A stretch of DNA of 53,902 bases from Deltaproteobacteria bacterium (GTDB lineage: Bacteria; Desulfobacterota; Dissulfuribacteria; Dissulfuribacterales; UBA3076), in NCBI GenBank assembly GCA_018399745.1, contig JAGYNZ010000018.1, positions 1-53,902 of the forward strand, written 5' to 3'. Made by a program: the position numbers and the translations under genes. The notes beneath the pieces were generated by a model. It was not told the origin of the DNA, searched no databases, and saw nothing but the letters and a program-made list of their open reading frames with translations. This document shows positions 43,695 to 53,902 of this stretch, one piece after another (the stretch's first letter is position 1; each line of letters opens with the position of its first letter).

Positions 43695-43792
43695 GGAAGC
43701 GGAAAGGGCACTGGTGGCCCTCCCGGACTTCAAATCCGGTGCATCGGGTGAAGAGCTCGATGGGTGGGTTCGATTCCCATGCGCTTCCGCCA
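43695..43792 (+). tRNA. selC: tRNA-Sec (anticodon TCA)
   Basis: A long tRNA of about 98 bases: acceptor GGAAGCG/CGCTTCC, discriminator G and encoded CCA (43790-43792), a D arm with an AGGGC/GCCCT stem, anticodon stem CCGGA/TCCGG with loop CTTCAAA (anticodon TCA), a long variable arm (CATCG...CGATG) and a T arm with GTTCGATTC. It reads UGA as selenocysteine. The eighth acceptor pair of bacterial tRNA-Sec would be G-G here. It is the attachment site for the adjacent integrase. Confidence 0.93.
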
Positions 43793-43807
43793 TTTTATTT
43801 CAGTAGG

Positions 43808-44968
43808 TTACGGCTTATCGCTTGTAATCTCTTTGTGCTTGGTGTCCATATAGGTGTCTATCGTTCCCTCAGTATTCATCTGGTCTGCCCACTTCACCTG
43901 CACCAATTCTTCCTCAGTGACCAGATTATAACGTTTGAAAACGCTCATTGTCTTGTGGCCTGAGATTGCCATAATCTTAAAATAATCATTCCCTGCCTGG
44001 CGCAGGTTGTTAATTGCACAATGGCGGAGGTCATGAAAGGTGAAGTCCTCCAGACCAGCCCGGCGGCAGGCGGCTTCATAGGCAGAGCGGATGTCCTTCA
44101 AAGGTTGCCCTTTTAACAGAAAGACTTTGTCAGTATGAAGAGCCTTGGGAATACGTTCTAACATGGTACGGACCCTTGGGTGAAGAGGGATAGTTCTGCC
44201 AATTTTTGTCTTGGTCCGGTCCGCTGTCAACCGGATGATACCCTTGGCGATATCTACCTCGTTCCATGAGAGCTCCAGGATCTCCCGTTTTCTCATGCCT
44301 GAATAGTAGGCAAGGGCCACTACAGGCCGTAAATGTGCGGCACATTCTGAAAATAAAAGCTCGAATTCAGACTGAGTTAGAACTCTTTCTCTGACGTTAT
44401 TTACAGCCACAATCTTTACCCGCTGAATGGGGTTGTGGTCAAGTTTTCCATGTCTCACAGCTCTGTTGAGGAGTGCCTTTAGCATAGTTACTTCCAGGCG
44501 CACGGTAGCTGGCGCGGTCGTTTTTCCCTTTCGTCTCGTCGATGGTTCAGTTAGACGTTGGGCCTGATATGCTTCAATACTGCCTGGTGTCAGGGCGCTG
44601 ATTTTGACAGTCTCACTCAGTAAACGGAGCACATGGGAAAGGCATTCCCGGTCCCTGTTGACTGATTTCTTGGCCTTTACTTCCGACAGATCCAGATACC
44701 ACTTGTAAAGTTCTCCCAGAGTAGTCCTGGCGGCCTTATCCTTGTCAATGTATCTTTCCTCCGTCCTTGCCTTCAATACCTCCCTGAGTCGTTGCTCAGC
44801 GGCGGCCTTGGATGGTCCAATCCTCTCCCTCCTGCGCTTTCCGTTCAGGTAGTATTCGATCCAGTAAATCTTGTGTGCGGACTTTCTGATATTGAGACCA
44901 CACTTACACTCGGCGTTCTTTATGCTCATGCGTTTCTTGCACCTGGGACACTCGATTAACAGGCCCAT
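43808..44968 (-). CDS. Tyrosine recombinase / phage-type integrase
   Basis: A 386-residue integrase. A zinc ribbon (CPRCKKRM...CKCGL, residues 7-25) precedes an SAM-like core-binding domain and the catalytic domain, whose residues are visible as GMRKRE (Arg), FHDLRHCAI (His and Arg), ISGHKT (His) and FKRYNLV (Tyr nucleophile). The start at 44968 follows a good AGGAGA ribosome binding site; the frame extends 14 codons upstream into the neighbouring gene. It lies 16 bases from the CCA of tRNA-Sec, which is thus its attachment site, and recombines element ends with that tRNA. Confidence 0.93.
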   Translation of the reverse strand: MGLLIECPRCKKRMSIKNAECKCGLNIRKSAHKIYWIEYYLNGKRRRERIGPSKAAAEQRLREVLKARTEERYIDKDKAARTTLGELYKWYLDLSEVKAKKSVNRDRECLSHVLRLLSETVKISALTPGSIEAYQAQRLTEPSTRRKGKTTAPATVRLEVTMLKALLNRAVRHGKLDHNPIQRVKIVAVNNVRERVLTQSEFELLFSECAAHLRPVVALAYYSGMRKREILELSWNEVDIAKGIIRLTADRTKTKIGRTIPLHPRVRTMLERIPKALHTDKVFLLKGQPLKDIRSAYEAACRRAGLEDFTFHDLRHCAINNLRQAGNDYFKIMAISGHKTMSVFKRYNLVTEEELVQVKWADQMNTEGTIDTYMDTKHKEITSDKP

Positions 44969-44970
44969 TT

Positions 44971-45735
44971 CTAATTCTCCTTTTTTTGTTTGGCTCTTTT
45001 TTGCTTCCACCAGTCAAACCATTGATCTATTTCATTCTGGGGAAGGTCCAAATTTTCCATGTATTTTGTCATGGTTTTGCGTATACCTCCCTCGGATTTC
45101 CCTGAGCTGGCAACGTAAGTGAATTTCATGCGTATCCGTTGGCGTATCTTGTAATCATCTTTCTGACGGTTGATTTGGGACTTGTGGCGCCATAAGCAGG
45201 CTTTGGAACAATAAAGCTTATCTTTTTTTGTGGGATTAAAGAACCACTTCCGGCATACCGGATCTTCACATTTACGAAAGCTATCTGCCGGGCATCCATC
45301 TAATAATTTCATGATCCAAAAAAGATATATTTTTGATGAGTCCTTCTTCACCCTCCAGTCTTCACTGCACCATAGTTGCCCTGCATTAGTAACAATGCGT
45401 GACGATACTTCAATTTGGTCGAGTTCATAGTTGACTATATATTTGTTATGTTCGTGAGGTATCGATGGGATGATTTTAGCAACAAAGAAATCCCATAGCA
45501 TTTCGGATAATTTATGCGGGGTTATAGGTGGTTTGCCGGATTTCATTTGCACAGAAGCTTCTCTGCTTATATTTGGAAATGTCAATTCAATAAGCAATTG
45601 TTCGACCTCATCATTGAGTTCCTCCAGTTCCTTTTTGTCTATTATCTTTTCAAGATTTTCCCTCTGAGCAAAATCCAAGAACTTGTTAATCAATGCGGTC
45701 TTTTCCCTTAACTTCACGTGATGGTCCTCCCTCAA
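44971..45735 (-). CDS. CGNR-type zinc-finger protein, integrase partner
   Basis: A 254-residue protein. Residues about 158-190 carry CEDPVCRKWFFNP followed by YCSKACLWRHKSQ, the paired CxxxxC...CxxxC pattern of the CGNR zinc finger seen in putative transcription factors. The N-terminal 150 residues are helical and unassigned. Its stop codon lies 2 bases before the integrase start codon, so the two genes are translationally linked and probably co-regulated. A regulatory role in integration or element control is inference. Confidence 0.65.
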   Translation of the reverse strand: MREDHHVKLREKTALINKFLDFAQRENLEKIIDKKELEELNDEVEQLLIELTFPNISREASVQMKSGKPPITPHKLSEMLWDFFVAKIIPSIPHEHNKYIVNYELDQIEVSSRIVTNAGQLWCSEDWRVKKDSSKIYLFWIMKLLDGCPADSFRKCEDPVCRKWFFNPTKKDKLYCSKACLWRHKSQINRQKDDYKIRQRIRMKFTYVASSGKSEGGIRKTMTKYMENLDLPQNEIDQWFDWWKQKRAKQKKEN

Positions 45736-45885
45736 ATTAAGTCTAAACTAATATTAGTCACCTATTATATTATTTGTCAATAATTATGATACTTTTATTT
45801 TTAAAAAGATGGGTGTTGATTTTTTTTAAAAAATAGAGTAGAGATAATATTAGTCCAACAAATATTATTAAATAGGAGTTTAAGA
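45736..45885. promoter_or_regulatory. Divergent control region of the element
   Basis: AT-rich region between the minus-strand zinc-finger/integrase pair and the plus-strand AlpA-like gene. TAATATTAGTC occurs twice as a direct repeat (45749-45759 and 45845-45855); the first copy lies in a perfect 12-base palindrome ACTAATATTAGT (45747-45758), and AATATTATTA follows the second. These are operator-like boxes for a regulator of both directions. A TAGGAG ribosome binding site serves the gene at 45886. Confidence 0.5.
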
Positions 45886-46074
45886 ATGCCGTTTCCAGAA
45901 CTTAATGATGTATCTATGGCAGCCACAATTTTAGGAATCAAAGAATCGACGATTAGGGCGTGGATACACACTAGGCGAATCGAGTTTGTCAGAATCGGAC
46001 GTCGAGTAAAAATACCAGGCGCCGAGATTCAAAGGATTATTGATGAAGGCAGGCAACCGAGGCGACTTATTTAG
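45886..46074 (+). CDS. AlpA/excisionase-like helix-turn-helix protein
   Basis: A 62-residue DNA-binding protein with an excisionase/AlpA-type winged-helix motif: VSMAATILGIKESTIRAWI followed by the RIGRRVKIPGAEIQRII wing. Such proteins act as recombination directionality factors or as activators (AlpA) of satellite genes. It lies divergent from the integrase and next to the operator-like boxes. It is the first gene of the plus-strand element operon. Confidence 0.8.
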   Translation: MPFPELNDVSMAATILGIKESTIRAWIHTRRIEFVRIGRRVKIPGAEIQRIIDEGRQPRRLI

Positions 46075-46102
46075 TCAGAGTTCATTTGTCTAGGAGGTTT
46101 TT

Positions 46103-46219
46103 ATGGAAATTTTACATTCTCCTATTTCCTGGTTCATCCACACAAATTTAATAAAAATCTTATTTTTCCAGCGATATGCGGATGTTCTGCTTATTTGTGT
46201 GGGATTTGTCGGGGGATGA
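46103..46219 (+). CDS. Small hydrophobic protein, 38 residues
   Basis: A short open frame with an exceptional ribosome binding site (TAGGAGG, 5 bases before the ATG). It encodes 38 residues starting MEILHSPIS and ending in a hydrophobic LLICVGFVGG stretch, consistent with a membrane-associated peptide. Its stop codon is 3 bases before the ATG of the primase-polymerase gene, so it may couple translation. I know of no homologue. The strong ribosome binding site is the main evidence that it is real. Confidence 0.55.
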   Translation: MEILHSPISWFIHTNLIKILFFQRYADVLLICVGFVGG

Positions 46220-46222
46220 GCT

Positions 46223-48373
46223 ATGCCTGAAATTGATATCTCAAAAATCCCTAGTGAACTTAGAAATCTTCCTCAGTGGGTAGTGTGGAAAGCTAAGCCT
46301 CAAGAAAACGGCAAAATAGATAAACCTTTGTATGACCCTAAGTCTGGTAATTCTGCGTCTCATTCAAATCCTGAAAATTGGGCCAGTTTTGAAGCCGCAT
46401 TGAGCGCCTATGAAACCGGCGGTTATTCGGGGATCGGTTTCGTCTTCAGTAAAGATGATCCCTACTGCGGAATAGACCTTGATAGCAAGCCAGAGAAAAA
46501 TATCGAATGCAGAAATCCTAGGACCGGCAAAATTGAACCTTGGGCCTTGGAAATAATAAAATCCTTTAAAAGCTACGCTGAGGTAAGTCCATCCGGTTCA
46601 GGCATCCATATAATAGTTAAGGGCCAGCTACCCGAGGGCGGTCGGAAAAAACCAAACATAGAAATTTACAACAAGCACCGATACTTCACTGTTACTGGGA
46701 ATCACCTTGAAGGCACACCACAAGACATAACATTCTCTCAAGATGCCATAAACTCACTTTTAGCAAGCCATTTCCCAAAACAGGTACCAAAGCCCTCAAT
46801 TAAGCGCAACGCTTCCCCACGGGCCAGCCTGGACGACGAAGCGTTAATTCAGAAGGCCATTGAGTCCGCGAACGGGAATAAATTCAACCTGCTTTATCAG
46901 GGACAGTGGGAAGAAGCCGGATACCCCTCCCAGTCAGAAGCAGACCAAGCTCTGTGTAATCAACTTGCCTTTTGGACTGGAGCCGATGCCGGGAGAATGG
47001 ATTGCATCTTTCGTCAATCTGGCCTTATTAGAGCTAAATGGGACGAGAATCATTATAACGATGGGCGAACCTACGGCGAGGTGACTATCTCAAAGGCCAT
47101 AGCAAGCTGTAGTGCAACTTATTCCGGGCAGATCCCGCTTGATGAATCTGAAGGCTGTAGTGACATTGATGAAGCAGTTGAGGACTTATCTCCCAAAAAA
47201 CAAACTTCACCCGTGAGAGAAAGTTCAGCCCCTTCAATGGCGGACCTCAGAGAATACGTTGACGTGTGTGTTGTACCTGGACAGAAGATAAAAGTCGATG
47301 AAATTTGTCGAGGACTGGACTGCTTCAAAAGGGAGGAACGCAAAATCGTTTACAAGAACATCAACCGGTTATGCAGTGAAGGAATATTGAAAAAAGATGA
47401 CTACCAGCATGGCGGGTATAGGAGAGTGATTGAGGTTGAGTCCTACGACCTGGGCGGTGCTATTTCAGAGGATGAACTAAATTTCAATATTGTCCTACCC
47501 CTTGAGTTACATAACCTTATCGACCTCAAAGCAGACCAGTTGTTGCAGGTATCCGGCAGATATGACGCTGGGAAATCCTCTTTCCTGTTTCAGATTATGG
47601 CTGACAATTATCTGAATAACAAAATCACTCTCATTGTGTCTGATGAATGGAGCAAGAACGCTATAAAAGAACGTATGGACGTTCTGGGGATACCGAGACC
47701 GCACCCAAACATAACAGTGATACCCATGAAGCCAGGATACGAGGACATGATACCAACAGGCCGCTGTATTTGCCTTATTGATTATATCCGAGCAGACCAA
47801 AATCCTTTTGAAACAGATGCTCAAATTCAGCGAATCCTTAAAAATCTTAGTGGTGGGGTTGCCATATTTGCTACACAGAAACACCCCGGATTAGACCGAC
47901 CAGTGGGCGGACAATTTGCTATCCATGCCAGTCATCATGTTGTCTTGCTGGATAAATGGAAAGAATTGTTCACCTGCAAAATCTATCGGACGAAAAAAGA
48001 AAAAAACCTTGAGGGTATGTATAAAACATTCAAGATAAGTGACCAAAAAAGACTATATCCTGTTATGGAAAACTGGAAGCAGGGGGGAATCAAGTGGGAC
48101 AATGAACCTAAAATCAATGACGGCAATGACGGCGTAATAAATGCCGTCAATCGGGGGGGTCCCCTTATAAATAAAGAAAGAAAAAAAGAAAGAAGCAAAG
48201 AAAAAAAGAAAGAAAGGGAAATAACTCCTGTGAATAGTGGAGATGATAATACCGACGCTCTCTTCGCTGTGGACACTTTGTTAAATATACAAGAAAAGCA
48301 AAAAGACTTTAAATCACAGGGGGTGTGTAGAAACGACAAACATCAAGACCAGAAGACAATTACATTATGGTAA
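46223..48373 (+). CDS. Primase-polymerase with NrS-1-like domain and RecA-like ATPase
   Basis: A 716-residue replication protein. Residues 1-170 form an archaeo-eukaryotic primase domain: the DxD metal motif YCGIDLDS (Asp85, Asp87), the SGIHI motif (His129) and the RYFTVTGN strand. Residues about 203-297 (ALIQKAIESANGNKFNLLYQGQ...WDENHYNDGRTYGEVTIS) match the helix-bundle domain of the deep-sea phage NrS-1 self-priming polymerase. A winged helix (about 340-402) and a RecA-like ATPase (Walker A GRYDAGKS, 445-452; LIDYIRADQ) follow. The C-terminus is a Lys/Glu-rich tract. It should initiate replication of the element. Confidence 0.82.
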   Translation: MPEIDISKIPSELRNLPQWVVWKAKPQENGKIDKPLYDPKSGNSASHSNPENWASFEAALSAYETGGYSGIGFVFSKDDPYCGIDLDSKPEKNIECRNPRTGKIEPWALEIIKSFKSYAEVSPSGSGIHIIVKGQLPEGGRKKPNIEIYNKHRYFTVTGNHLEGTPQDITFSQDAINSLLASHFPKQVPKPSIKRNASPRASLDDEALIQKAIESANGNKFNLLYQGQWEEAGYPSQSEADQALCNQLAFWTGADAGRMDCIFRQSGLIRAKWDENHYNDGRTYGEVTISKAIASCSATYSGQIPLDESEGCSDIDEAVEDLSPKKQTSPVRESSAPSMADLREYVDVCVVPGQKIKVDEICRGLDCFKREERKIVYKNINRLCSEGILKKDDYQHGGYRRVIEVESYDLGGAISEDELNFNIVLPLELHNLIDLKADQLLQVSGRYDAGKSSFLFQIMADNYLNNKITLIVSDEWSKNAIKERMDVLGIPRPHPNITVIPMKPGYEDMIPTGRCICLIDYIRADQNPFETDAQIQRILKNLSGGVAIFATQKHPGLDRPVGGQFAIHASHHVVLLDKWKELFTCKIYRTKKEKNLEGMYKTFKISDQKRLYPVMENWKQGGIKWDNEPKINDGNDGVINAVNRGGPLINKERKKERSKEKKKEREITPVNSGDDNTDALFAVDTLLNIQEKQKDFKSQGVCRNDKHQDQKTITLW
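48115..48225 (+). other. Possible replication origin signal inside the primase gene
   Basis: TGACGGC occurs twice (48118-48124 and 48127-48133) and again inverted as GCCGTCA (48143-48149). A run of seven G followed by TCCCC (48153-48164) comes next, and then a purine-only tract of A and G (about 48174-48222). Repeats, palindrome and unwinding-prone tract are typical of origins, but the region is also coding. Confidence 0.25.
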
Positions 48374-48696
48374 CAGTTCAAGCCGCTCTACAAACAATAG
48401 AACAATACGGCGGCAACTTGGATATGACCACAGGTGAGTTGAATATTCTGTCAAAGGCCCTTGAGAAAGAAGAGTTAAAAAGGGCGGTCAATATTCTGAA
48501 AGAAGCCGGTCCCGATAAGGTCAAGGCTGCCAAAAAGTTGCCATATATTAATCAGAAAGGTGTCCTGGTAATACCATTTGATAGTGAACCGAGATACCAC
48601 TGGTGGGCTGGGGGGCAAACCATACTCGAAACATTGCGGGGACTTAAAGCCTCACTGGAAATAATTGCTATGTATGTGCCTGGTGGGGCGGCATGA
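48367..48696 (+). CDS. Hypothetical 109-residue protein
   Basis: A soluble protein with no motif I recognise. The first 60 residues are helical (MTTGELNILSKALEKEELKRAVNIL), the rest contains an IPFDSEPRYHWWAGGQ strand and an amphipathic C-terminus. It overlaps the primase gene by 7 bases, indicating coupled expression, and ends 13 bases before the Spo11-like gene, so it is probably part of the replication module. Confidence 0.65.
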   Translation: MVTVQAALQTIEQYGGNLDMTTGELNILSKALEKEELKRAVNILKEAGPDKVKAAKKLPYINQKGVLVIPFDSEPRYHWWAGGQTILETLRGLKASLEIIAMYVPGGAA

Positions 48697-48709
48697 CGAG
48701 TGAAAACAA

Positions 48710-49690
48710 ATGATTCCTTTACAATTAGACGAAGAAACGAGATCGGATCGAAAGGCATGGGCCTGGACGGAACTTACTAAGGGCAGAGGCGATGATTTGG
48801 TCGCTATTTTTAATGACATGAAAAGATGGTGGCCGTTGACTGCAAGACAGGCTTATTATCGACTCATTTCTTCGGATCGTATCAACAAGGCTCACTGGTA
48901 TAAAAATGGGAATTTGAGCAAAGGGATAGTGGATGTTTATTCGGCGGTCATTCGTACACTTAAATGGTTACGGATTGAGGAAAAGTTACCATGGGACGCA
49001 ATTATAGATGAGCACAGAATTACGACAGCAAAGGTAGGTTTTTCAGATAGAGAACATTTCATACTTAAGGAAGTAGATAATTTTTTGGAGGGTTACAGAA
49101 AATGCAGAGCTCAAAAGCAGGAATATTATATTGAAGTGTGGATTGAAAAGGCCGCTTTGCTTCATATTGTTAAACCCATATCTGATTACTTCTGTAGGCG
49201 GACTATTGCTTGTAGGGGATACAACAGCATAACGTTTCAAGCAGAGTGTTACAATAGGGTACAGGAGGCACTTGGATATGACCAAAAGCCTATTGTTCTA
49301 TACTTCGGTGACTGGGACCCGTCAGGCGTAAACATGTGTTATGCCGCAATGCAGACTCTTTATGAAGAACTTGGCCTATTCGGGTTGGACTTTTATAGGT
49401 GCGGTATAAATCCTGAGCACTTTGACCAGATAACAGCTAACCCTGTACCAATAAAAAAAACAGACAGTAGGAGCAAACGCTTTATTGAGCAGTACGGAAC
49501 CACTGCTTATGAATTAGATGCTTTCCATCCTGACCAATTACAAGCCTTGGTAAAAAAATCAATCGAGAGATTTACAGACCTGGACGCTTTAGAAGATGAT
49601 TTAGAGCAAGAGCAATGGGATCAAGAATGTCTTGGAACGCTGAAAGACGATGTACTCCAGCTGGTGGAAGAGAGAGGCTACAAAGTTTAA
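48710..49690 (+). CDS. Compact Spo11/TopoVI-A-like protein with TOPRIM domain
   Basis: A 326-residue protein. An N-terminal winged-helix-like region has LTARQAYYRLIS (43-54, Tyr49/Tyr50), which matches the place of the catalytic Tyr in the 5Y-CAP domain of TopoVI-A/Spo11 (RDIYY-type motif). A TOPRIM domain follows: Glu146 in IEVWIEKAAL and Asp201/Asp203 in YFGDWDPSGVNM, equivalent to the GDPDPxG motif. There is no partner B subunit in the window. Small A-only relatives (Mini-A) are known from mobile elements. It may cut or join DNA during element replication; a nuclease role without strand passage is also possible. Confidence 0.65.
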   Translation: MIPLQLDEETRSDRKAWAWTELTKGRGDDLVAIFNDMKRWWPLTARQAYYRLISSDRINKAHWYKNGNLSKGIVDVYSAVIRTLKWLRIEEKLPWDAIIDEHRITTAKVGFSDREHFILKEVDNFLEGYRKCRAQKQEYYIEVWIEKAALLHIVKPISDYFCRRTIACRGYNSITFQAECYNRVQEALGYDQKPIVLYFGDWDPSGVNMCYAAMQTLYEELGLFGLDFYRCGINPEHFDQITANPVPIKKTDSRSKRFIEQYGTTAYELDAFHPDQLQALVKKSIERFTDLDALEDDLEQEQWDQECLGTLKDDVLQLVEERGYKV

Positions 49691-49715
49691 CCATGGCTAA
49701 ACTTTTTAGGAACTG

Positions 49716-49916
49716 ATGAAACTTACAGTCACCAACAGAATAATAACCCAGGGAATACCCGAGAAATTTAAAGTCGCTGTGAAAGAGCGTCTTACTTTTC
49801 CTCATATTGTAGTATTGAGAACAATAGCTAATTTTGGGAAAAGGAATTCTTTTTTATCAGAGCAAAAAGGGGACCCCTATCACCGAAAAAGGATGGGAGT
49901 TACCTCAGATATGTAA
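49716..49916 (+). pseudogene. Decayed start of a phage-type DEAD/DEAH helicase gene
   Basis: The first 24 residues, MKLTVTNRIITQGIPEKFKVAVKE, strongly resemble the start of phage DEAD/DEAH helicases (usually MxxTVTNRIIIEG-type). After about 30 codons the likeness is lost in this frame, but another frame shows SYCSIENNS, a stop, then FWEKEF, resembling the next helicase block. So the gene appears frameshifted and truncated. The remainder up to 50073 is gene-free and AT-rich. Confidence 0.45.
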
Positions 49917-50073
49917 ATACTTTGTTCACTTGTCAGCCTCAAATTTTCAAAATATTTTTCTAAACTATTCCTTCGCTCTTTTTTGCGCTTGAATTCTTAA
50001 ATGTCCCTTTATATCCATACATATGTTGAGAAGTTGATAAATATGAGCGTAAGATATTAAATAGAAAAAAGAC

Positions 50074-50637
50074 ATGAAAAAACAGGAACTTAAAAAACAA
50101 AAGATAGATTGCGAGAAAGAAACACTTCCTCCTATAAAAGCTAATAAGCTTGCCCTGTGGCTTAAATATTACACTGATGATTCCAATCCAGAAACTTTTT
50201 TAAATCAGACAAAATCAGCTATTTATGCGGGATATAAGGCAAAATCTGAGAATAGTTTTGCTAATATTGGATTGCAGAACTTTAGAAAGCTTGAGAGGCA
50301 TATAAACAGATGGTTGGACGAAGTAGGATTGAGTGAAACAAAGCTGAAAGAAAAGACCTTGCGTTTATTATCTGCAAAAGACACCAAGCTATTTATTCAA
50401 GAAAAAAACGGGGAACTGGATATAATTGAACATAAGATTCCGGCCCTTGAAACACAACGCCGAACCCTAGACATGGCTTTCAAAGTCAAGGGGTTGTATA
50501 AAACAAGTGATGTTCTGGGTAAAGCTACTCAAGTAAATATTCAATTAAATATCCAACGTCTTGGTAAACAACTGGCCAGTGAGCTAGAAAACAAAAGCCA
50601 AGCCATCGACTACCTTGAATCCGACCCTCTGGATTGA
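50074..50637 (+). CDS. Terminase small subunit-like protein
   Basis: A 187-residue protein resembling phage TerS. Residues about 40-80 hold an N-terminal DNA-binding helix-turn-helix (TKSAIYAGYKAKSENSFANIGLQNFRKL). The central part has the typical TLDMAFKVKGLYK oligomerisation segment, and the C-terminal QVNIQLNIQRLGKQL tail fits a terminase/portal-docking end. It would recognise element DNA for packaging. No large terminase is next to it, which fits a satellite that redirects helper packaging. The match is by pattern and not certain. Codon use looks AT-rich compared with the chromosome. Confidence 0.55.
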   Translation: MKKQELKKQKIDCEKETLPPIKANKLALWLKYYTDDSNPETFLNQTKSAIYAGYKAKSENSFANIGLQNFRKLERHINRWLDEVGLSETKLKEKTLRLLSAKDTKLFIQEKNGELDIIEHKIPALETQRRTLDMAFKVKGLYKTSDVLGKATQVNIQLNIQRLGKQLASELENKSQAIDYLESDPLD

Positions 50638-50791
50638 GAATTAGTGCGGGTCAACGGTTCGGACTAGGGACAATTTAAAAAAAGATAAAATTGATCTTAA
50701 TATCTAGCTGTTTGATGAATCTTTTTGCGGATTTTATGTTACAAAAACCGTATTAAGACCAATATAAGTTTTGGAAGAAGGTAACGTAATA

Positions 50792-51079
50792 GTGAAAAGA
50801 TTTATGATTATTTTCGTCATGCTTATGGCATCGTTTCCCTTAAATGTTTTCTCATCGTGCCATTCAGAATTTTTATGCGACAATCATGGAAATTGTAGAT
50901 GGGTAGAGGTGTGTGATAATCCTTTGGATATACCAGCGCCTAAAGTATATACGCCTCGTATTTCTCCGGTCGTTCCGCCTGAACCACCTTCCATAGAACC
51001 TATTGGCCCTCCAGGTTCAAGGGATGGACAACATTTATACAATCCTGATAAGGGTGAATGGGATTGGTATTTTGAATAG
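50792..51079 (+). CDS. Small secreted protein, Cys- and Pro-rich
   Basis: A 95-residue precursor. The start is GTG at 50792 with a GAAGAAGG ribosome binding site; an upstream TTG would be less likely. Residues 1-22 are a signal peptide (KRFMIIFVMLMASFPLNVFSS). The mature part has four Cys in its first 25 residues (CHSEFLCDNHGNCRWVEVC) and then a Pro-rich linker (PRISPVVPPEPPSIEPIGPPG). It has no known relative; surface or periplasmic location is likely. Confidence 0.6.
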   Translation: MKRFMIIFVMLMASFPLNVFSSCHSEFLCDNHGNCRWVEVCDNPLDIPAPKVYTPRISPVVPPEPPSIEPIGPPGSRDGQHLYNPDKGEWDWYFE

Positions 51080-51426
51080 AATTTTTATCCTTACTTGACA
51101 TGACTTTTAAAATTAGATAGTCCATCCTATCAGGTCCATACTAAAAAGCTGGAGAATAACAAAAACAGTGTGGAGATAGGCTGAATTTGGATATAAAGGC
51201 AACTGAAGTTGTAATGGAACTCCCGGATACTGATTTAAAAATTGGTGCTTCTGGGAAATAGTAACAATTTCAAAAAGACTTTTTCTGCAGACTCGGCGGA
51301 GTACATTGCCCGAGACGGTTGAATATTAAGAAGTGAATCAATGTACTAAATTTCATTATATATAGTATTTTAGGCCTAATAAATCCAGCATGTTACATGA
51401 AGTTACTTAGAAAACAATAAGAAATA
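51080..51426. other. Intergenic region before the HNH gene
   Basis: AT-rich, without a supported gene. It has a TTGACA near 51095 without a good -10, and a small GATAG/CTATC hairpin near 51117-51132. A 24-codon frame ending at about 51262 has no supporting ribosome binding site and is not called. Confidence 0.4.
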
Positions 51427-52338
51427 ATGAAAGCGTTCGTCGGAATAACTGACCGAGATTGGTTCGACCTGTTGAGCAATCAAGAACTAATCGAAGAGGT
51501 GAATTTCTGGCAACCCTCCGGAAATCGGCAGTTCCGTGCCCTCAGCCCAGGTGAACTATTCCTGTTCAAACTCCACAGCCCCGAAAACTTTATTGTGGGG
51601 GGCGGCATCTATGCCCATTCGAGCCTTTTACCCATTAGTCTCGCATGGGAATCCTTTGGCATCTTTAATGGTGCTCGAAATCTTTCGGAGATGCGTGTCC
51701 GCATTGCAAAATATAGAAGACAAGCTGAAAATCGGGCTGCGGATTACAGGATCGGATGCATCGTGCTTGAACAGCCCTTCTTCCTTCCTCATCACTTATG
51801 GATTCCAGTTCCGTCTGACTGGAAGTCCAATATTGTTCAAGGTCGAGTATATGACTTGATCACGAAACCCGGTTCCACTCTCTGGGAACGTCTCCAATTA
51901 ATGCTTCCTTCCTTGTCAGCAGAGCTTGGCAGTCGTCCGCAGTATGGTGCTCCCTTACTAACCTTCCCGCGCCTCGGCCAGGGGGCATTTAGAATACTTG
52001 TGACCGACGCGTATGAACGGCGATGTGCCGTGACCGATGAGCGCACACTCCCAGCACTCGATGCGGCCCATATTAAACCTTACTCCGAAAACGGACTGCA
52101 TTTAGTCAGTAACGGGATTCTGTTCCGCAGAGATCTGCACGCTCTATTCGACAAAGGCTACATTACCATTACGCCGACGATGCATATTGAGGTCAGTCGA
52201 CGAATTAAGGAGGAATTTGAAAACGGAAGGGATTATTACAGGCATCATGGCGATTCGATTCGACTTCCCATAAATCCGCCGGATAGACCCTCACCAGAAT
52301 TTCTCGAATGGCATAACACCAACATATACAGAGGATAA
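51427..52338 (+). CDS. HNH endonuclease with N-terminal PUA-like region
   Basis: A 303-residue protein. The C-terminal HNH nuclease (about 198-255) shows YERRCAVTDERTLPALDAAHIKPYSENG...NGILFRRDLHALFDKGYI, with catalytic His and metal-binding residues. The N-terminal 180 residues (FVGITDRDWFDLL, GELFLFKLHSPENFIVGGGIYA) look like a PUA/EVE-type reader fold; such domains can bind modified bases. The family is widespread in bacteria and usually considered a restriction-like nuclease. Together with the next gene it may be a defence cargo. Confidence 0.8.
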   Translation: MKAFVGITDRDWFDLLSNQELIEEVNFWQPSGNRQFRALSPGELFLFKLHSPENFIVGGGIYAHSSLLPISLAWESFGIFNGARNLSEMRVRIAKYRRQAENRAADYRIGCIVLEQPFFLPHHLWIPVPSDWKSNIVQGRVYDLITKPGSTLWERLQLMLPSLSAELGSRPQYGAPLLTFPRLGQGAFRILVTDAYERRCAVTDERTLPALDAAHIKPYSENGLHLVSNGILFRRDLHALFDKGYITITPTMHIEVSRRIKEEFENGRDYYRHHGDSIRLPINPPDRPSPEFLEWHNTNIYRG

Positions 52339-52455
52339 AAAGCTACAAAAAGCAGTAAACCTGATGCCGTAATGGGTACCGGTAATATCTTGATACACGG
52401 CGAGGGCATCTTTCTGCTATGCTCGCGGTTCAACACACCGCGATTAGAGACAAAA

Positions 52456-53250
52456 ATGAAGAACATTGAAGTGGGATCTTGGGAAGCGTATTGTTCAAAA
52501 GTTAAAGAATTGGAGCATAAGTACAAAAATGTTCCCGTTCTTTTTCGCGGTCAATCTAATGCAAGCTGGCATCTAAAAACAACACTTGAAAGATTTTCAA
52601 AATCACGTTGGACAATTAAGAAGTATTGTAAACTTGTAATCGATTGCGTGCGCGGCTTGGGACCTATCGATGACTATAAAGGCAACATCCCGAGTTTAGT
52701 AGATATAGACCGCGAACTGAGTGACAACATGAATCATGTTCTGGTGCATATTCCTGCTTCCATATCTTTTTATTGGACCTATCTGCGTCATCATGGATTT
52801 CCTTCACCTCTTTTGGACTGGACTAAGTCTCCATACATTGCTGCTTTTTTCGCATTTTGTGATTGTGCGGGTAGGGCTAAAAAAGTGGCAATTTTTGCAT
52901 TTATTGATTCGATGAACGGCAGCAAATTTATATGGACAGGGAAGCCTCAAATTACTTCACAATGGCTCAACATTCATAAGCACTTAAGACATACTTGTCA
53001 GCAATCGTGCTACACTATTGCGACAAAAGCGATAGAGAACGATCATCAGTTTGCGGGGCATGAGAAAGTTATTCAAGAAAACGAGATTAATCAGGATATT
53101 CTTATCAAATTACTTATTCCATCTACAGAATCTATGAAGGCCATGAAATGGCTTGACGAAAAGGGAATCAATTATTACAGCCTCATACATGATAGGGAGG
53201 CTCAACTAAAGAGTCTTGCATTCAAGAAAATTAGGCTTATGGGTCTCTAA
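52456..53250 (+). CDS. FRG-domain protein
   Basis: A 264-residue protein with an FRG domain: VLFRGQSNASWHLKTTLER (28-46) and LRHHGFPSPLLDWTKSPYIAAFFAF (the RHxGxxTxLLDxT motif with Ser-Pro in place of Thr). FRG proteins are often carried by defence islands and prophages; their biochemistry is not established. I chose the ATG at 52456 because the domain starts there; the frame is open back to 52372. The gene lies 117 bases after the HNH gene. Confidence 0.82.
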   Translation: MKNIEVGSWEAYCSKVKELEHKYKNVPVLFRGQSNASWHLKTTLERFSKSRWTIKKYCKLVIDCVRGLGPIDDYKGNIPSLVDIDRELSDNMNHVLVHIPASISFYWTYLRHHGFPSPLLDWTKSPYIAAFFAFCDCAGRAKKVAIFAFIDSMNGSKFIWTGKPQITSQWLNIHKHLRHTCQQSCYTIATKAIENDHQFAGHEKVIQENEINQDILIKLLIPSTESMKAMKWLDEKGINYYSLIHDREAQLKSLAFKKIRLMGL

Positions 53251-53364
53251 TCGGTTAGTCGGCGGTCTTTCTCCCATGGTCCCCACGCCATTAGGCAAGC
53301 GGGGTTTGCACTAGGCGGTTCTCATAGGCTACCGCGCTGTGTCTGGGTGTTAAACTGAACTACC
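53251..53364. other. Short GC-rich segment with a hairpin
   Basis: Contains CCCCACGC...GCGGGG followed by TTT (about 53280-53310), a possible terminator of the FRG gene, and a GC-rich remainder unlike the AT-rich element genes. I looked for a tRNA or attachment repeat here and found none. Confidence 0.35.
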
Positions 53365-53902
53365 TCACTTAGGCCATAATATTATCGCATCAGCACAGTC
53401 TCTTCCGGTCATTTTAGCTCCGTGCTTAACAGGGGCTATAACCTTCATGGCCAAAGCAATACCTTGAGGGGTAGTAGTGCTAATCAACCTTGGCTGTTCA
53501 GTTTCTTCGCCCCAATACTGCATTACTGTGAATACCTTTACCCCTTCCTGGATTAATCTTCCAGCCAGATACTGGGGATTATCAGATACTCCGGGAGCCC
53601 ATACAATGTGCTTAATGCCATGAATATTCCCGACCAGTATCACTAAACAATCGTATTGCCCACTGTTAATAGCTGAAAGAATATTTCGGTACATGGTCCC
53701 GTCACGATCTTTAACACCTTCTGGGGCATCAATAGCCCTGATGTCAAGAAGCGCTCGTTTTGCCTTTAATTTCCCCAGCTCTATCAACATTTCTCGATAA
53801 GCAGGATAGTCAACTACCGGTGAAATAAATTCCTCATAAACAGGCTTCTGCCCCGCAAGAACTCTTTCTAAGTCATCCTGAGAACTGGAGGGAATTTCCA
53901 GC
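53365..53902 (-). CDS. C-terminal part of an unidentified protein (partial), possibly EreA/ChaN-like
   Basis: An open frame enters from the right edge and ends at 53365 (TGA). At least 178 residues are visible. The stretch RDGTMYRNILSAINSGQYDCLVILVGNIHGIKH resembles the helix-strand-Gly-Asn-x-His pattern of the EreA/ChaN/Tiki superfamily of haem-binding or esterase-like proteins, but this is weak. The 5' end lies outside the window, so no start is given. It is convergent with the FRG gene, so it may be host DNA or another cargo. Confidence 0.45.
   Translation of the reverse strand, partial: LEIPSSSQDDLERVLAGQKPVYEEFISPVVDYPAYREMLIELGKLKAKRALLDIRAIDAPEGVKDRDGTMYRNILSAINSGQYDCLVILVGNIHGIKHIVWAPGVSDNPQYLAGRLIQEGVKVFTVMQYWGEETEQPRLISTTTPQGIALAMKVIAPVKHGAKMTGRDCADAIILWPK

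Follow-up and report, generated by a model that had tools for sequence, protein, structure and literature searches.

A candidate PICI-like phage satellite integrated at selC in a Desulfobacterota genome

The phage satellites described so far come for the most part from Pseudomonadota, Bacillota and a small number of further groups (PMC10690885, PMC11389934). The described systems closest to the element reported here are the phage-inducible chromosomal islands (PICIs), both the Gram-negative ones such as EcCICFT073 and the Staphylococcus aureus pathogenicity islands (SaPIs). The element is integrated at the tRNA-Sec gene selC of a Deltaproteobacteria bacterium (Desulfobacterota; assembly GCA_018399745.1) and reaches the right-hand end of contig JAGYNZ010000018.1, the whole of which, 53,902 nucleotides, was analysed and is called the window. 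The window is the entire contig C10 of this genome (G000; 88 contigs, 2.65 Mb, completeness 97.5%). A first-pass annotation of the window had proposed a PICI-like satellite at selC, a reading that is given a probability of about 0.64 here. The integration at selC and the plan of integrase, AlpA, primase and terminase small subunit (TerS) stand, whereas the absence of structural genes holds for the assembled parts of the element only.

The selC element shares with PICIs a site-specific integration bounded by attachment (att) sites, a terminal integrase gene (int) with an AlpA-type regulator, a primase of its own belonging to the archaeo-eukaryotic primases (AEP) and defence-type cargo (PMC6092414, PMC7581432). 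It encodes a TerS alone, as do some PICIs (PMC6092414, PMC7581432), TerS not being required for PICI membership. The differences from PICIs are the selC site, a gene for a Spo11/TopoVI-A-like protein, an SPP1-like TerS whose family is known from uncultivated phages and, with weak support, a primase fused to a RecA-like and not a D5-type ATPase. The capsid-forming PICIs (cfPICIs) carry TerS, the large terminase subunit (TerL), portal, protease, capsid and HNH genes (PMC10690885). They are similar in int, AlpA, primase, terminase and HNH but differ in that the assembled parts of the selC island are without TerL or head genes, while two sibling islands in the same genome, B and D, have TerS and TerL with no head genes seen. 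The phage-inducible chromosomal minimalist islands (PICMI) of Vibrionaceae have int, the gene directly upstream of int, AlpA and primase in common with the element. The PICMI model demands integration at fis and a primase of the DUF3987/DUF5906 type (PMC10803314), whereas the present island lies at selC with an NrS-1-type primase and a TerS and falls outside that model.

Integration between selC and cstA

Position 53902 is the end of C10 and lies inside the element, with no attachment site; because the window is all of C10, the element is cut at its right side by the contig end. A search with the selC region gave one further place, G000:C11:3877-3930, where the tRNA-Sec 3' end occurs again; this is the direct repeat beyond 53902 that the first-pass annotation had named as a check. 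This attR is identical to attL at 52 of 54 bp, including all of the first 45, and keeps the chromosomal right-hand flank, with cstA adjoining it on C11 (PF02554, 8e-134). The site is empty in a genome of the same genus, G005, where the order is uvrA - tRNA-Sec - cstA. In the alignment to G005, C10 is 94.6% identical up to the core and C11 94.7% identical from the core, and because the two overlap by exactly the 54-bp core the insertion is site-specific at selC. The att repeats and the empty site together prove that the element was inserted between selC and cstA. It comprises C10:43749-53902, an assembly gap of unread sequence and C11:1-3930, that is, at least 14.1 kb plus the gap, compared with a PICI size criterion of about 15 kb. 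The features of its left end are:

43695..43792, forward strand: tRNA-Sec (selC), the integration target, restored at the left end by the element (ARAGORN; Rfam RF01852, 74.5 bits)
43749..43802, forward strand: attL core, 54 bp, pairing with attR at G000:C11:3877-3930
43841..43860, forward strand: 20-bp inner repeat containing two GGTGTC at a distance of 12 nt; second copy at C11:3736-3755

The inner repeat exceeds the longest shared word in 100 Markov resamples (maximum 16) and is a possible integrase arm site. At G003:C133:2772-2825 (L041) the tRNA-Sec 3' end occurs in isolation (87%), without the tRNA and between unrelated chromosomal genes, possibly as a scar.

Gene content and the orphan terminase small subunit

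The genes and other features of the assembled element, with open reading frames abbreviated as ORFs, are:

43808..45010, reverse strand: tyrosine integrase, annotated start GTG 45010, ATG 44968 possible (phrog_1, 3.5e-58)
44971..45735, reverse strand: 254-aa protein immediately upstream of int, with a CGNR-like zinc finger
45886..46074, forward strand: AlpA/excisionase-like helix-turn-helix regulator, divergent from int (HTH_17 5.9e-11; TIGR01764 excisionase)
46144..46234, forward strand: leader 5' of the primase gene, 78% identity to the leader of the primase of island B (C51)
46223..48373, forward strand: NrS-1-type AEP primase (phrog_1829 2.4e-96; NrS-1 HBD 3.5e-29)
48367..48696, forward strand: 109-aa ORF, function unassigned
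48710..49690, forward strand: putative Spo11/TopoVI-A-like protein (phrog_6247 1.1e-42)
50074..50637, forward strand: orphan TerS with a predicted SPP1-like fold
50771..51079, forward strand: small probable secreted protein after TerS (TerS and the same ORF in remnant C29)
51191..51295, forward strand: repeat 5' of the HNH gene, 79% identity to C11:2788-2891, 5' of the second HNH gene
51427..52338, forward strand: HNH nuclease (HNH_2), resembling phosphorothioate-DNA restriction enzymes
52372..53250, forward strand: FRG-domain protein, defence candidate (PADLOC PDC-S15, 3e-32)
53365..53901, reverse strand: ORF without assigned function, running off the contig end
G000:C11:1-3930, after the gap, in order: ArdC-N-like ORF, WD40-like ORF, staphylococcal-nuclease (SNase) protein, second HNH gene, attR

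The integrase gene lies 16 bp past tRNA-Sec, and the matches listed confirm the gene order of the first-pass annotation: an integrase abutting tRNA-Sec, a divergent AlpA-like regulator, a primase-polymerase next, a TerS-like gene and HNH and FRG cargo.

The predicted fold, the TerL neighbours of its relatives and family matches together give solid support to the window TerS as a genuine terminase small subunit. Its single-protein Pfam match is weak (Terminase_2, E 0.083), and Terminase_2 is matched by 5 of 14 aligned family members, with a best E of 0.001. The AlphaFold2 model has a helical N-domain, a beta-hairpin and a helix as in Terminase_2. In Foldseek comparison with the PDB only the SPP1-like small terminase 3zqq gave matches below 0.001; at the same threshold most of the named viral matches are small subunits of terminases. 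The TM-scores are low, about 0.2-0.4, and the TerS family is therefore supported while the exact structure is not. Alignment search gave 30 relatives in IMG/VR and one in the genome collection, the latter in a Desulfobacterales metagenome-assembled genome; none was found in named phages. TerL, of several types, is found close downstream in 24 of these 31 loci, some of which are redundant, by tblastn or hidden Markov models. Five more have a similar downstream ORF, by eye or near-identity only, which leaves two (L113 and L131).

In the selC island, TerS has no adjoining TerL and the genes that come next are not TerL. A remnant on C29 (L040:8357-9134) keeps the end of TerS together with this small secreted ORF, at 82% DNA identity to window 50614-51161, and adjoins scraps of a transposase and an intron reverse transcriptase. 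Because the pair of TerS and small ORF also occurs there, the orphan order is no accident of the selC copy. No relatives of the small secreted ORF were found in plasmids. On the phage contig L116 (IMG/VR) a TerS of the window type is paired with a TerL that has 54% identity to the island B TerL.

The N-terminal 300 residues of the primase match NrS-1 primases and PDB 7ola, presumably the SaPI5 primase-helicase. They align end to end with the NrS-1 phage primase-polymerase (PDB 6a9w, 7rr3; E about 7e-41), whereas the C-terminal half differs and is, from a weak match, probably a RecA/DnaB-like ATPase. The earlier claim that the primase type departs from that of PICIs is not borne out, because the primases of SaPIs likewise belong to the AEP group (PMC7581432) and solved primases in the PDB are similar; the type is thus no argument against PICI kinship.

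The assignment of the 48710-49690 protein to Spo11/TopoVI-A is plausible but unproven. Its top PDB profile match is DNA topoisomerase VI A subunit 1d3y, and residues R46, Y50, E146, D201 and D203, invariant in nine aligned relatives, would fit a tyrosine and a TOPRIM site of the TopoVI-A type, the candidate catalytic Tyr and the E/DxD of the TopoVI-A/Spo11/JetD superfamily being retained. The profile match, however, has an E of only 0.0056, the model of the protein did not recover TopoVI-A in Foldseek and no VI-B partner was found. A match to a sialyltransferase (CST-I) was weak and local and was rejected. Members of the family are common in phages, occurring in 71 named phage records and on at least 574 IMG/VR contigs, so the gene is not by itself the sign of a new satellite family that it had been taken for. 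The AEP primase was likewise rejected as such a marker when taken alone, since SaPIs have AEP primases. A single-sequence search of viral contigs gave no close viral relatives of the primase or of the Spo11-like protein.

As cargo the island carries the HNH, FRG, nuclease and ArdC-like genes, which probably act in defence or counter-defence, and cargo-like genes flank the gap on either side. Repeated intergenic blocks with a promoter-like core (TTGACA-N17-CATACT) precede cargo genes in the window (51101-51295), in L003 (360-421 and 2578-2891) and on C51, C65 and C29, and a repeat with 87% identity is common to C11 and C51.

Structural genes and the assembly gap

Profile scans found no capsid, portal, tail or TerL gene in the 14.1 kb of assembled element. 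The first-pass annotation had seen none in the window and had called for a search of the flank; there is none on C11:1-3930 either. Because a gap separates C10 and C11, this absence is limited to the assembled parts. The whole-genome searches, in which contigs C76, C77 and C79-C87 were masked (N), placed HK97 capsid (PF05065) and portal (PF04860) on C74 only, gave no match for tape measure (PF10145) or for TerL by PF03354, and found TerL on C51 (phrog_2) and C46 (GpA) with a weaker phrog_2 match on C18. C74 (L014), 3 kb long, encodes a portal, a ClpP-like protease and an HK97 capsid, and is part of a prophage or helper without an assigned place in the genome. With the same contigs masked, no gap filler was found among most of C29-C87 by shared sequence, or by end overlap for the main candidates; neither C10 nor C11 has any sequence in common with C74 or overlaps its ends. 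The gap may nevertheless hold structural genes, because C74 is unplaced and the small contigs are masked.

A prophage at selC, intact or decayed, with its structural genes in the gap or lost, is compatible with the unread gap and would give the three C74 genes a place, and primase and Spo11-like genes also occur in phages. It is nevertheless unlikely: TerL does not follow TerS, in the selC copy or in the C29 remnant, cargo stands on each side of the gap, the genome holds no strong TerL or tape-measure match left unassigned, and several viral TerS relatives are linked to capsid and portal types unlike those of C74. A cfPICI with C74 inside the gap is far less probable still. The content of C74, exactly portal, protease and capsid, would suit such a satellite with its own head genes, but TerS has no adjoining TerL and the sequence and ends of C74 do not join it to C10 or C11.

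The preferred reading remains a PICI-like satellite, and its life cycle would, by analogy with described PICIs (PMC6092414), run as follows. A helper phage would raise AlpA, Int and AlpA would excise the island and the island's own primase would replicate it; the island TerS would then dock the helper TerL onto island DNA, which would be packed into helper capsids. Some points weigh against this reading. No iteron array was found near alpA, the primase gene or the spo11-like gene, and no pac or cos site was found for the element. The unread gap, with C74 unplaced and the small contigs masked, also counts against it.

Sibling and related islands

Two further islands of the genome are less ordinary in having int, AlpA, TerS and TerL with no capsid seen. 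Island B on C51 (L047:1714-9374) comprises int, AlpA, a TOPRIM-type primase, TerS, TerL and a 231-aa ORF, and no capsid was seen on the contig. Island D on C46 (L088:191-10449) begins with tRNA-Phe, int, an IrrE/SprT-like metallopeptidase-like ORF, an HD hydrolase and a CAP12/Pycsar TIR effector, and continues with a 243-aa ORF, a GpA-type TerL, TerS, AlpA and a RecA-like ATPase. The TerS labels of B and D are based on position before TerL and mutual similarity, without a family match; the two TerS are 32% identical and the ORFs after TerL 23%, while the TerLs have no mutual match. Neither portal nor capsid follows TerL in B or D, and D is contiguous from TerL to the tRNA. Head genes elsewhere in both islands are possible because both run off contig ends. 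A 92-bp leader with 78% identity and aligned start codons (window 46144-46234, L047:7226-7317) precedes the unrelated primases of the selC island (A) and B, which possibly reflects shared regulation or module exchange.

In a sample of 395, 10 genomes other than that of the window are listed with the Spo11-like gene. Also less ordinary are two complete tRNA islands with this gene on long contigs of other genomes in the phylum, one of 10.0 kb in G308 (L148+L149) with an exact 53-bp tRNA-Arg repeat and a Spo11-like protein 57% identical, and one of 9.4 kb in G181 (L158) with an exact 51-bp tRNA-Arg repeat. No structural genes were found in the scanned ORFs of either island. Contig C30 of G171 has a primase, a Spo11-like gene, TerS (phrog_57, 6.5e-28) and TerL (phrog_15, 9e-246), with no capsid visible before tRNA-Arg. 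G378 resembles, by eye, an ordinary prophage.

The terminase genes recurring in B, D and G171 speak against an integrative plasmid-like or mobilizable island that acquired terS and acts independently of phages, as does the absence of relaxase and conjugation genes from the assembled parts of the selC element. Similar primases do occur on plasmids, and neither AlpA and Int nor defence cargo is specific to phages, but such an island is very improbable.

The PICI-like selC island, B, D and the islands of G171, G181 and G308 may, as a tentative grouping that is somewhat doubtful, form an undescribed satellite lineage of the phylum. Its plan would be int - AlpA/HTH - replication gene - (Spo11/TopoVI-A-like) - terminase without a capsid, some members having a complete TerS and TerL and no head. 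A literature search of partial coverage found no report of satellites in such hosts. A TerS-bearing island with a proven site, together with TerS-TerL siblings without a visible capsid, would extend phage satellites to a little-studied lineage, and would raise the question whether some satellites bring the whole packaging motor yet borrow the head.

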